This document shows, one piece after another, positions 13,873 through 18,764 of a stretch of DNA of 64,000 bases. The DNA comes from Bacteroidia bacterium (GTDB taxonomy: Bacteria > Bacteroidota > Bacteroidia > Cytophagales > Cyclobacteriaceae): the NCBI GenBank assembly GCA_030432655.1, contig JAUILA010000012.1, forward strand, positions 62,001 through 126,000. Direction: 5' to 3'. The first letter of the stretch is position 1, and every line of letters begins with the position of its first letter. The notes below the pieces were generated by a model. That model worked only from the letters and a program-made list of their open reading frames with translations. It did not search any database and was not told the DNA's origin. The position numbers and the translations under genes are program-made.

Positions 13873-14235
13873 GTGGAAGAGAACAACAATAATGAAAGAG
13901 ATGAGATTTTTTCTGAGCGAGTGAGAGCGGGGAAACGTACTTATTTTTTCGATGTAAAGGCAACACGTTCTAATGACTATTACCTGACAATAACTGAAAG
14001 CAAGCGCCGGTACAAAGAGGATGGGTTTACGTATGAGAAACATAAGATCTTTCTCTACAAAGAAGATTTTAATAAATTCGTTGATGCACTGCACAGTACT
14101 GTAAATCATGTGAAAGAAGAGTTGCTTCCTGAGGTGGATTTTACTCAATTTGAAAGACTTGAAGATTCGCCCGGATACAACGGGCAGCATAATGGTTCTG
14201 CCAATGAGATTGATACCGAGTTGAAATGGGACTAA
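13873..14235 (+). CDS. PUR-family nucleic-acid-binding protein (DUF3276)
   Basis: This 120-residue protein is of the PUR-alpha-like family that includes the Borrelia regulator BpuR. Such proteins bind single-stranded DNA or RNA as dimers. Seen here are the PUR strand pattern EIFSERVRAGKRTYFFDVK (about 11-29), the segment YYLTITESKRRY (about 36-47), and a C-terminal helix (YKEDFNKFVDAL). A disordered acidic tail follows. The start is GTG 13873; no ATG lies near it, and the family begins at this point. A rho-independent terminator follows the gene. The targets are unknown. Confidence 0.85.
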   Translation: MEENNNNERDEIFSERVRAGKRTYFFDVKATRSNDYYLTITESKRRYKEDGFTYEKHKIFLYKEDFNKFVDALHSTVNHVKEELLPEVDFTQFERLEDSPGYNGQHNGSANEIDTELKWD

Positions 14236-15395: not shown

Positions 15396-16493
15396 ATGGC
15401 ATTAAAGTGTGGGATTGTTGGATTACCAAATGTTGGAAAATCCACGCTCTTCAATGCGATCTCCAATAATAAGGCAGAAGCTGCCAACTTCCCGTTTTGT
15501 ACTATTGAGCCAAATGTCGGGGTAATTACCGTACCTGACGAACGGCTGACAATTCTCGAAGACCTGGTAAATCCGCAACGGGTGATGCCAACAACCATTG
15601 AGTTTGTTGATATTGCAGGACTGGTGAAAGGTGCCAGCAAAGGGGAGGGGCTGGGAAACCAGTTTCTCGCCAATATCCGGGAAGTGGATGCAATTGCGCA
15701 TGTAATCCGCTGTTTTGAAGATGACAACATCGTTCATGTGGACGGACGTATTGATCCTGTGACGGACAAGGAAGTCATTGACACGGAGCTCCAACTTAAA
15801 GACCTGGAATCGGTTCTAAAGAAGATTGCGCGAATTGAAAAAATTGCCAAAACCGGGGACGCAGCGGCCAAAAAAGACCTCGCAATTTTACTTAAGTATA
15901 AGGAACACCTGGAGTCGGGAAAGAATGCGCGTGCGCTTGAAATTTCCCCGGAGGAGCGCAAATCCATAGCCGATTTGCAGCTGCTGACCATCAAACCTGT
16001 GATCTATGTGGCCAATGTGGAAGAAGACGCATTGCCGGATGGCAATCAGCACAGTGATAAGCTGCGTACAATTGCTGCAGAAGAGGGTGCCGATGTGATT
16101 GTAATCTCTGCGTCCATTGAGGCCCAGATCGCTGAACTGGAAGATGCGGAAGAAAGGGCGATGTTCCTTGAGGAATATAACCTGAAACAATCCGGATTAA
16201 GCAAACTGATCAAGGCAGCCTACCATATGCTTGACCTGATTACTTATTTTACAGCAGGGGAAAAGGAAGTTCGCGCATGGACAATTCGCCGTGGCTGGAA
16301 AGCGCCACAGGCGGCTGGCGTCATCCATACTGATTTTGAGCGGGGATTTATCAAGGCCGAGGTGATTGGCCTGGCCGACTATGAAAAATACAAAACGGAG
16401 CTGGCATGCCGGGAAGCTGGCAAAATTGCCATAGAAGGGAAAGAGTACGTGGTGAAAGACGGAGATATCATGCATTTCAGATTTAATGTATAA
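15396..16493 (+). CDS. ychF: Ribosome-associated ATPase YchF (Obg-like)
   Basis: This 365-residue protein is the universal YchF/OLA1 ATPase of the Obg-related P-loop group, linked to ribosomes and stress control. Visible motifs are the P-loop GLPNVGKST at about residues 8-16, the FPFCTIEPN switch region, [20 protein letters not shown], a coiled-coil hairpin at about 130-200, and the C-terminal TGS-like domain ([21 protein letters not shown], and [10 protein letters not shown] at the end). Length matches the family. It follows the AI-2E transporter gene by three bases and is followed by a terminator. Confidence 0.97.
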
Positions 16494-16594
16494 TCTTATT
16501 TTTTTATTACATGATCTTTTAGATTTCGCCATTTAATACTATTTTTAGAGGCTAGTAGTAATTTTTTAGGTTCTTAGATACTCCTTTAGTCAAT

Positions 16595-16619
16595 CGATCA
16601 GATTTTGCGATCGTTTTTT
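16595..16619 (+). terminator. Probable rho-independent terminator after ychF
   Basis: CGATC at 16595-16599 pairs with GATCG at 16609-16613 across a nine-base loop, and six T residues follow. The stem is short, but the shape and position fit termination of the ychF transcript before the Cas6-like gene. Confidence 0.6.
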
Positions 16620-16670
16620 GTTGATTTGAGTGATCCTAAGCCCTGATTTTTTAAAAAATTCGCATTTACA

Positions 16671-17480
16671 TTGAGAGTCAGGATTATTTTTCAATTAAAG
16701 AACAGAGGAAGTCACATCCCGTTCCATCACCAGTACCTTTTGGCGCAAATGATCAAAGGGATCCTCATGAAGGGCAACGAGGAGAAATTTGTTAATTATA
16801 CCTTTTACAATTTCTCCGGATTAAAGGGGCAGACAAAGATCAGCCGGAAAGGACTTCATTATTATTCATCAAGGGTTACCCTGGTATTATCAAGCCCCAA
16901 CAAGGATTTCATTGATTATTTCCTGACCAACCTGTTTGATTTTCCTAAAGTTGAATTGGGCGCACTGGCATTGCATCCGGAAACCGTTGAGCTGGAGGAG
17001 CCTGTAGAGATGCAGGAATATGCAAAGTTTATTTGCATTTCTCCCCTGGTCGTACTGAATTCAAGTTTCAATGACAGTTCAGCCAAGCGCTTCATTCCTC
17101 CCGAAACAGATGTATTCTCCGACCTGTTGTACGAATCTACCATGCAGCGCATGCAGCAGACAGGTTCTTTCAGTGATGAGGAGCTTGCCAGTTTCTATAA
17201 ATTTCAGCTGATCCCTGACAAAAACTACATTGCGCGGCTAACTGCCCAGCAAAAGAAGTATGCCCGGATCTATCCTGTATTTGACCAGGACGTGAAATAT
17301 GAGATACGCGGGTACACATTTCCTTTTACCCTTTATGCAGCGAAAGAAGTGCTTGATTTTGTATTCAATTGCGGGCTCGGTCAGTTTACGCACAAAGGCT
17401 TTGGTATGCTTGATGTCGCAAATACAAATCCGAACAGCCGGGCACTCAAATACGAATTCAATTACGCTGTTTCCCGCTAG
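16671..17480 (+). CDS. Solitary Cas6-like protein (possibly inactive)
   Basis: Cas6 proteins cut CRISPR precursor RNA with a double ferredoxin fold. This 269-residue protein has the family landmarks: the N-terminal strand MRVRIIFQL, then HHQYLLAQMIKGIL (19-32), a FYNFSG segment (45-50), FICISPLVVLN (120-130), and the C-terminal glycine-rich loop GLGQFTHKGFGMLDV (235-249). Compared from memory with Pyrococcus Cas6, its catalytic Tyr31 and His46 positions fall on Lys29 and about Glu37-Glu38, so the usual residues appear missing. The start is TTG 16671; an ATG start would remove the first strand. No other cas gene or repeat array is in the window. It could be a non-cutting RNA-binding Cas6, one serving a distant array, or a protein co-opted for another RNA. 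Confidence 0.8.
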   Translation: MRVRIIFQLKNRGSHIPFHHQYLLAQMIKGILMKGNEEKFVNYTFYNFSGLKGQTKISRKGLHYYSSRVTLVLSSPNKDFIDYFLTNLFDFPKVELGALALHPETVELEEPVEMQEYAKFICISPLVVLNSSFNDSSAKRFIPPETDVFSDLLYESTMQRMQQTGSFSDEELASFYKFQLIPDKNYIARLTAQQKKYARIYPVFDQDVKYEIRGYTFPFTLYAAKEVLDFVFNCGLGQFTHKGFGMLDVANTNPNSRALKYEFNYAVSR

Positions 17481-17492
17481 AAGCCAGTTTTC

Positions 17493-18764
17493 TCAGAAGG
17501 AATTAAAGGTAATCTGTTTGTACCCCATCAGGTATTCGCCGCGCTCCATTACCGGATCGACATATACAAATATTTCGTATAGGTTTTCCGTTTCGTAATG
17601 ATCTCCCCCGTAATAGTTTACTGACAGGGAGTCTCCACGCACCTCGTACTTATAATTGTAGAAACCCTGTTTCAGCAATAATTTTGCCTGGTATTGACCG
17701 GTGGATTCAGTATATCTCATCAGGTTTTCCGGTGCTTTGCGGTAGTTGTTCATCTGGCCCACTACGTATACCTCCCCGGGAATTTTCTCTGCTTCAAGGC
17801 TGAAAGTCACTTCCACATAATCGGATTCGATAACACCGTTTCCCGTATCTGTATTTGCCACCACAAAGTCGCCGTTGATGTCCACGATCCGGCTGTATGC
17901 TTCCTTACCCCGAAATTTATCAATGGCCAGGAAAACCTGAATTGGCCTTTGCTGGCGATTGGTATATGCAACGTTCTGACCCGGGTACTGAAGTGACCGC
18001 ATATCAAAAAACCGGTATTCCGTTCCTGCGTAGAATGCATTCTCAAAATTAAAGAAGCGGTATTCAAGCTGTGAGTCCATGTCGCGTATGAAGGTAGGCT
18101 TCAGACCAGTGATTGCATTATCCCATCGCTGGTTCTGCCGAATTACCACCTTCACCTGGTCCATTGGATTCTGAAGGTCCACATCCCCGTAATTAAGAAT
18201 AAAATCAATTTGCTGCCTGCCCCGGTCAACCGAAGTGAGTCCGCGGAGGTCACTGGTTACCCCGATATTTACCTGGTCTCCGTAAATCATAAAACGATGG
18301 CTGAGAATTATATCCCGTTGATCACTGCCCCGGTAGGCAACAAGAAGGTAATTGCCGGGACGTTTTACCGGCGGCACCTCAAAGACATAATGAACATAGG
18401 ACAGTTTCACGTCCACTGAATATTCATACCGGCGGATGTTAAATTCGTTGTACCCATCCAGGAAATCCAGGTTGCGCAAGTCACTTTCCGTCCAGTCTGC
18501 ATTACAGGCGATGATCCTCACCCTGTAATCTTCGGCATCCTGAACCAGGTCGTCAAATTCAAGAATCATATTTTGCCCGGATAACGGGGCAACCGAAGGG
18601 CGAAGATAGGTGGATTCCCCTCCACCCCGGGGGTACATCATTACCGTGCGGATCTCGGCTTCATACGTGGCATTCTCATATACCAGCACTTTATTGTTTT
18701 GGGGGAGAATACCGGCAAGAAATGCCAGAAGGTAATGGGTAAGGGTGATATAGGTTAAGGTCAT
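17493..18764 (-). CDS. Type IX secretion system Plug protein (DUF5103)
   Basis: This 423-residue periplasmic or outer-membrane-associated protein matches the DUF5103 family. In Flavobacterium johnsoniae a family member is the Plug found bound to the periplasmic opening of the SprA translocon pore. An N-terminal hydrophobic signal (about residues 3-20) is followed by beta-rich segments such as DLVQDAEDYRVRIIACNADW, then YEFNIRRYEYSVDVKLSYV-like strands, and MYPRGGGESTYLRPSV near residue 43. The C-terminal part (about 300-423) resembles a carbohydrate-binding-module-like sandwich. It fits the T9SS cargo proteins elsewhere in this window. The gene is divergent from an ECF sigma factor. Confidence 0.85.
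   Translation of the reverse strand: MTLTYITLTHYLLAFLAGILPQNNKVLVYENATYEAEIRTVMMYPRGGGESTYLRPSVAPLSGQNMILEFDDLVQDAEDYRVRIIACNADWTESDLRNLDFLDGYNEFNIRRYEYSVDVKLSYVHYVFEVPPVKRPGNYLLVAYRGSDQRDIILSHRFMIYGDQVNIGVTSDLRGLTSVDRGRQQIDFILNYGDVDLQNPMDQVKVVIRQNQRWDNAITGLKPTFIRDMDSQLEYRFFNFENAFYAGTEYRFFDMRSLQYPGQNVAYTNRQQRPIQVFLAIDKFRGKEAYSRIVDINGDFVVANTDTGNGVIESDYVEVTFSLEAEKIPGEVYVVGQMNNYRKAPENLMRYTESTGQYQAKLLLKQGFYNYKYEVRGDSLSVNYYGGDHYETENLYEIFVYVDPVMERGEYLMGYKQITFNSF

Follow-up and report, generated by a model that had tools for sequence, protein, structure and literature searches.

A conserved, CRISPR-independent Cas6 derivative of Bacteroidota without the canonical catalytic site

Introduction

Cas6 proteins are known parts of an immune system, in which they normally serve as the RNA cutter of CRISPR immunity. 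In Cas6e and Cas6f the catalytic histidine lies at the start of helix 1; the catalytic columns of the alignments used here are, we assume, those of the Tyr31, His46 and Lys52 triad of Pyrococcus furiosus Cas6. Two further Pyrococcus proteins of known structure, PDB codes 3ufc (entry title 'Characterization of a Cas6-related gene from Pyrococcus furiosus') and 3qjj (PH0350, 'One RAMP protein binding different RNA substrates'), are Cas6-related and, as we understand them, non-catalytic. RNA-binding proteins that regulate their own synthesis and have weak start codons also exist, for example infC.

We found no description of a solitary Cas6 family in Bacteroidota among the titles and abstracts listed from the open-licence literature (subscription papers were outside the scope of the search), and the available passages of PMC8730458, PMC6452270, PMC5294841 and PMC10910872 contain no mention of one. 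According to the passages available of PMC5294841, isolated cas loci were counted only if they contained three cas genes, so that survey would miss a gene of the kind described below.

Gene and locus

The gene, designated cas6L, lies at positions 16671..17480 on the forward strand of the window, which is the whole 64,000-nucleotide stretch of DNA analysed, and its open reading frame encodes 269 residues from a TTG start codon (16671..16673). A leader (16494..16670, forward strand) separates it from ychF (15396..16493, forward strand), and the gene for a T9SS plug protein (17493..18764, reverse strand) converges on it from the other side. Pfam assigns the upstream neighbours in the window to DUF58, DUF3276, AI-2E transporter and YchF, and those downstream to T9SS plug protein, ECF sigma factor and ABC-type ATPase, in agreement with the initial annotation, which had placed a Cas6-like gene between ychF and the plug gene. 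No other cas gene lies beside cas6L, either within the window or among the genes that commonly flank its orthologues.

Family membership and overall structure

The cas6L protein matches PF01881 (Cas_Cas6_C) at 1.4e-20 (74.8 bits; cut-off 23) and TIGR01877 (cas_cas6) at 5.1e-21 (76 bits; cut-off 58.65), far beyond chance, and the Cas6-like character first read from the sequence alone is thus borne out. Cas6 models of PADLOC also match, the best at 1.6e-31. The nearest solved sequences are those of Cas6 and Cas6-related proteins, with 3ufc the best of them.

The initial annotation had proposed structure prediction and comparison with Cas6 structures. An AlphaFold2 model calculated from a 57-row alignment has a pLDDT of 93.7 and a pTM of 0.89. 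Its top matches in VIA-align, effectively tied, are 3qjj (Z 26.4, rmsd 2.2, 229 aligned residues), 3ufc (Z 26.2, rmsd 2.5, 231 aligned) and 5yi6 (Z 25.9, rmsd 2.1, 224 aligned), followed by 3i4h (Z 25.0, rmsd 1.9, 217 aligned) and 3pkm (Z 24.1, rmsd 2.2, 218 aligned); the next match falls to Z 15.1. The model thus has a Cas6 fold, with Z of 24–26 to the closest archaeal Cas6 structures, and cas6L belongs to the Cas6 superfamily (RAMP) both by sequence and by its double ferredoxin-like fold.

Catalytic site and invariant residues

The protein was aligned with its orthologues (hereafter orphans), with CRISPR Cas6 of the same family and with other Bacteroidota Cas6. The catalytic tyrosine is present in 18 of 19 family CRISPR Cas6 and 11 of 11 other Bacteroidota Cas6, and in none of the 58 orphans, 37 of which have a lysine at this column. 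The histidine of the LHxxGY motif is likewise present in 18 of 19 and 11 of 11, and falls in a gap in 58 of 58 orphans; a lysine or arginine occupies the third column in 18 of 19, 11 of 11 and 8 of 58, respectively. Among the 19 family CRISPR Cas6 rows, the tyrosine is missing from one (L243), the histidine from one and the Lys/Arg from one. CRISPR-type neighbours were present at five of the eight loci checked among the 11 rows from elsewhere in the phylum (L091, L093, L096, L101 and L105) and absent at the other three (L103, L106 and L110). The loop at the catalytic site has 11–19 residues in orphans versus 27–31 in CRISPR Cas6.

In cas6L, Lys29 (16755..16757) stands at the tyrosine column, and the missing histidine-bearing segment would fall at approximately residues 36–46 (16776..16808). 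The altered catalytic site proposed in the initial annotation is thus confirmed, as is its placement of Lys29; its assignment of the histidine position to Glu37-Glu38 does not hold, because the segment that bears the histidine is absent. An alignment that places a histidine at the catalytic position, which would have refuted the proposal, was not found: a histidine occurs somewhere in residues 33–47 in 14 of 57 orphans, with no fixed position. The alignment shows that the canonical Tyr/His/Lys site has been lost in the orphans, and the missing triad speaks against classical repeat cleavage by cas6L.

Over 57 diverse rows the orphans have 38 invariant columns, which include H20, Q21, K52, Q54, K195, K196, R199, R213 and Y215. 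In the FHHQ motif (residues 18–21, 16722..16733), F18, H20 and Q21 are invariant and H19 is found in 54 of 57 rows, while the family CRISPR Cas6 have Asn-Tyr at the positions of the two histidines. The main rival to the reading preferred below builds on these residues: the orphans could be active, re-specialised ribonucleases that lost the Pyrococcus-type triad and cleave a cellular RNA by means of a new site, e.g. H19/H20, at the start of helix 1, with K52, R213 and Y215. The closest folds, however, include the Cas6-related proteins that we presume to be non-catalytic, and there is no direct evidence of catalysis. Although catalytic residues do differ between Cas6 families, according to the available part of PMC6452270, we consider this rival unlikely, without being able to set it aside.

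Relationship to CRISPR

The only PF01881 match in the genome's own assembly (4.9 Mb, 50 contigs, completeness 100) is cas6L, and neither Cas1 nor any match to RAMP proteins was found in this assembly, which is rated 100% complete. Five matches to TIGR01587 (cas3) were rejected; none is over the cut-off, and since the same search was positive in 14 of 14 control genomes, they are regarded as ordinary helicases. One family-type CRISPR repeat pattern gave no match in the genome; other repeat types were not covered, so an unrelated array is not formally excluded. The repeat scan of the window revealed no CRISPR-like repeat family, as the initial annotation had noted. A script-based scan of 155 orthologue loci, with flanks of only ~1.5 kb at 36 of them, revealed no array, while the same script detected arrays at 18 of the 20 Cas1 loci scanned in this family. 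An array call at L035 was discarded as a minisatellite. Separately, a CAGTAG-type minisatellite lies directly downstream of a Cas6 gene with a Cmr1 neighbour (L105, 2324-2587) and mimics an array in simple scans.

Among 196 genomes of the family, Cas1 is present in 75 and Cas6 in 168. Cas6 is present in 98–106 of the 121 genomes without Cas1, the margin reflecting eight genomes for which no Cas6 listing was available. More than one Cas6 gene is present in 34 genomes, and 31 of these also have Cas1. The orphan Cas6 is independent of CRISPR, as first supposed; the array or cas operon elsewhere in the genome that would have refuted this was not found, with the reservation about other repeat types given above.

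It remains conceivable that the orphan acts in trans on arrays elsewhere in a genome, or on arrays that are occasionally gained. In 14 genomes that carry a high-scoring Cas1, PF01881 matches only once, and in one of these (G914) a CRISPR array of at least 17 repeats in two runs lies beside Cas1 (L282, 13345-14497), with the only PF01881 match on another contig. A home-made CRISPR-Cas6 profile found nothing at five such single-match loci (G914, G790, G903, G855 and G111), some of them cut by contig or sequence ends; its silence proves little, because it also missed the Pfam-recognised Cas6 at L285 (G882). Some of the 14 genomes may, we presume, carry CRISPR types without Cas6. Action in trans is thus not excluded for these 14, but overall we consider it very improbable: most Cas1-free genomes carry a Cas6, the genome studied here has neither Cas1 nor RAMP proteins, two or more Cas6 genes are present in 28 of the 43 genomes whose Cas1 is high-scoring, and the triad is absent in the orphans. 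As a crRNA-processing endoribonuclease, cas6L has neither the CRISPR/cas context nor the catalytic triad, and there are no data on cleavage of repeat RNA.

Distribution and synteny

In a scan of named genomes, relatives are encoded in 180 of 203 candidate stretches; the best 80 of these 180, which belong to Fulvivirga, Cyclobacteriaceae, Cesiribacter and their kin, are 59–80% identical to cas6L over nearly the full length. Of 390 genomes sampled from the order, 180 match the cas6L protein at 1e-5 or better. The matches in four of them (G433, G484, G573 and G596) reach only 1e-8 to 1e-6 and could represent ordinary Cas6; the remaining matches are at 1e-42 or better. Orthologues are present in 72 of the 74 sampled genomes of the same family, including the genome studied here; the two misses (G624 and G648) were identified on the assumption that the listing of misses is sorted by kinship. 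Strong matches occur in 12 other families of the order, with 42–57% identity among the matches listed. Five genomes of one of the families sampled (f74; G416, G429, G454, G466 and G479) have two matches each, the second being either another orphan copy or an ordinary CRISPR Cas6. In a phylum sample of 395 genomes, matches beyond the family do not exceed 63.7 bits, and the 11 of 21 such loci that were placed in the tree all group with CRISPR Cas6.

The stable locus suggested in the initial annotation is evident from the 156 loci compared, which include the window, the genome's own copy (L082) and some genomes twice: in 136 of them ychF immediately precedes the gene on the same strand (median gap 108 nt), and the convergent plug gene occupies the next position in 105 of 151. 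In the non-redundant set (57 rows, <82% identity), ychF is upstream in 37. The 20 loci without ychF directly upstream comprise 19 of other families and one contig edge. Some loci of other families (e.g. L160, L161, L173 and L175) keep ychF beside the orphan, so the arrangement looks ancestral. This position would suit a RAMP-like scaffold whose main partner is a protein, such as YchF or the ribosome, and not a specific RNA; since 19 loci of other families keep the gene with no ychF close by, and many of its invariant residues are basic, we hold this possibility to be slight.

Natural losses occur. PF01881 is missing from 28 of the 196 family genomes, and among the 20 of these 28 that are listed, genera g176, g317, g338, g295 and g315 have two or three absentees each, with no listed match. 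All 12 genomes searched that lack a PF01881 match or an orthologue retain ychF. At four of ten gene-less loci (G648, G795, G811 and G624) the site is cleanly empty, with ychF adjoining the plug gene (0–62 nt between them); at the other six, other genes follow ychF.

Phylogeny and selection

In a tree of 88 proteins, which did not include 3ufc or PH0350, the 58 orphans form one side of a branch with a support of 100/100 and a length of at least 2.34 changes per site. The median dN/dS of the orphans is 0.015, based on those 14 of 21 pairs for which dS was usable; of the seven left out, six were saturated and one had a dS of 2.99. In the 15 genomes that contain both kinds, mean identity is 74% among orphans versus 49% among CRISPR Cas6, and in 92 of 105 comparisons the two orphans resemble each other more closely than the two CRISPR Cas6 do; ten of the 13 exceptions involve G737, whose orphan is on a long branch. 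This is not a pure comparison of rates, because CRISPR Cas6 genes may have moved between species. Sequence identity among the orphans is correlated with that of ychF (r 0.40), DUF3276 (0.45), AI-2E (0.49), DUF58 (0.49) and plug (0.65), as expected for a mostly inherited gene; the correlation with the ABC ATPase (ABC-F) is not significant (0.27, p 0.087). The orphans of genus g185 (L177, L188 and L244; G702, G690 and G737) are more diverged (45–48% identity, branch 0.91), with ychF still upstream in L177.

The orphans thus constitute one clade that changes slowly under purifying selection. A decaying CRISPR remnant, for which the lack of cas genes beside cas6L might speak, is refuted by the dN/dS of about 0.015; the 38 invariant columns over 57 diverse orthologues and the presence of the gene in 13 families of the order also speak against it.

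Start codon and leader

The aligned start codon is GTG in 97, TTG in 49, ATG in 9 and TTA in one of the 156 loci, i.e. GTG or TTG in 146; in the 57 non-redundant loci it is TTG in 28, GTG in 19, ATG in 9 and TTA in one. The locus with TTA has, as read from the alignment, a GTG one codon upstream, and an in-frame ATG lies upstream of the aligned start in two loci. The start of ychF is ATG in 134 of 137 loci and that of DUF3276 (13873-14235), presumably a PUR-alpha-like protein, is GTG in 89 of 90. A conserved non-ATG start thus occurs twice in this neighbourhood, with the ATG-started ychF in between, and is not unique to cas6L.

The leader contains a T-run (16647-16652), and U-rich leaders are conserved in the orthologues. 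A run of five T occurs at most 35 nt upstream in 91% of cas6L loci versus 0–60% in ten neighbouring gene families, for two of which (AI-2E and plug) the starts are less sure. Within 40 nt, such a run is found in 45 of 56 non-redundant loci, one of the 57 rows having been dropped as too near a contig end. In a subset of 20 divergent leaders of similar spacing, identity over the 27 columns that precede the start is 73%, compared with 48% farther upstream. The idea that the leader motif marks a regulon was considered and rejected: a 23-nt version of the leader was found in 9 of 16 chosen genomes, each time at the cas6L leader (exact in six, one mismatch in three), with no match in the other seven; elsewhere, it has one site with three mismatches (G865). 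The same pattern read backwards, as a control, gave three matches in two genomes. The leader in the window is a related U-rich sequence without the exact 23-nt version of other genera.

A hairpin that hides the start codon was considered but is not supported: some leaders fold in this way, but the mean z over 75 leaders (56 non-redundant loci and 19 of one subgroup) is 0.18, with no excess of structure. An Rfam search around cas6L gave no match, and a scan for sigma-70 promoters and terminators, which does not cover Bacteroidota promoters, found none. Many leaders contain, as we read them against a consensus, a TAnnTTTG-like box, and A-rich positions around -12 to -14 fit what we take to be the pattern of Bacteroidota translation context. 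The leader could therefore be, at least in part, ordinary translation context. We interpret it, without binding data, as a linear cis-acting site beside a weak start codon.

Proposed function

The cas6L family is a real, conserved, CRISPR-independent derivative of Cas6. Our preferred explanation, to which we give a probability of about 65%, is that a CRISPR Cas6 became a conserved stand-alone gene whose product has a CRISPR-independent role in RNA binding; the binding is inferred, without binding data. The Cas6 fold and the basic invariant residues suggest RNA binding, and the loss of the usual cutting site together with retention independent of CRISPR suggests that the bound RNA is probably some cellular RNA, as the initial annotation had proposed. 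No target RNA was found near cas6L with Rfam.

According to this stand-alone RNA-binding model, Cas6 would have become detached from the CRISPR machinery in an ancestral member of this order and turned into a conserved gene, which is fixed behind ychF in most lineages. The protein may recognise a short, mostly unstructured RNA through the new invariant basic and aromatic residues. The conserved leader and weak start further suggest feedback: on the U-rich leader upstream of the GTG/TTG start, the protein would repress its own translation, and its level would then follow the amount of free cellular target RNA. This autoregulation, to which on its own we would not give even odds, is a weaker inference than binding itself. 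Equally tentative is the wider proposal that a Cas6 with a rebuilt RNA site works as a housekeeping RNA factor in a large group of bacteria, where it binds a cellular RNA, perhaps cuts it with a new active centre, and senses its free amount through the leader and start codon; if true, it would mark an unseen RNA pathway in these Bacteroidota.

The family is of interest as a stand-alone Cas6 under strong selection in bacteria that, among those sampled, mostly lack Cas1, and as a clear example of a defence protein recruited to a different RNA-related task. TIGR01877 still labels cas6L 'CRISPR-associated endoribonuclease Cas6', which may mislead CRISPR counts. Its own leader, the invariant residues and the natural losses at an intact empty site offer handles for finding its RNA.

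Comparison with known systems

The cas6L protein shares the fold of Cas6 of the Pyrococcus furiosus type (3i4h and 3pkm; TIGR01877, PF01881 and the PADLOC Cas6b models) over residues 1–251, as well as the glycine-rich GxGxxxxxGFG end. In contrast to P. furiosus Cas6, it has no Tyr/His/Lys triad and no CRISPR context, and it is much more conserved. The CRISPR Cas6 encoded in genomes of the same family have the PF01881 match and the fold family in common with the orphans; they differ in retaining the triad in 18 of 19 cases, in forming a separate clade, in being on average less conserved, and in lying beside Cas1 and arrays in the loci checked.

With respect to regulation, cas6L resembles autoregulated genes of the infC type in having a conserved start codon other than ATG, immediately preceded by a conserved leader. 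These sequence features of an autoregulated protein are therefore present; leader binding and repression are without data, and autoregulation of cas6L has not been demonstrated. The proteins themselves are unrelated.

Further counterparts are the Cas6-related proteins PH0350 (3qjj) and 3ufc, the best structural matches together with the tied 5yi6; 3ufc is also the best match by sequence. Like these Pyrococcus proteins, cas6L combines a Cas6 fold with the absence of the triad histidine, and 3ufc also lacks the LH motif in the alignment. They differ from cas6L in being archaeal and only ~22% identical, and the segment deleted in cas6L is, in our reading of the alignment, still present in 3ufc.
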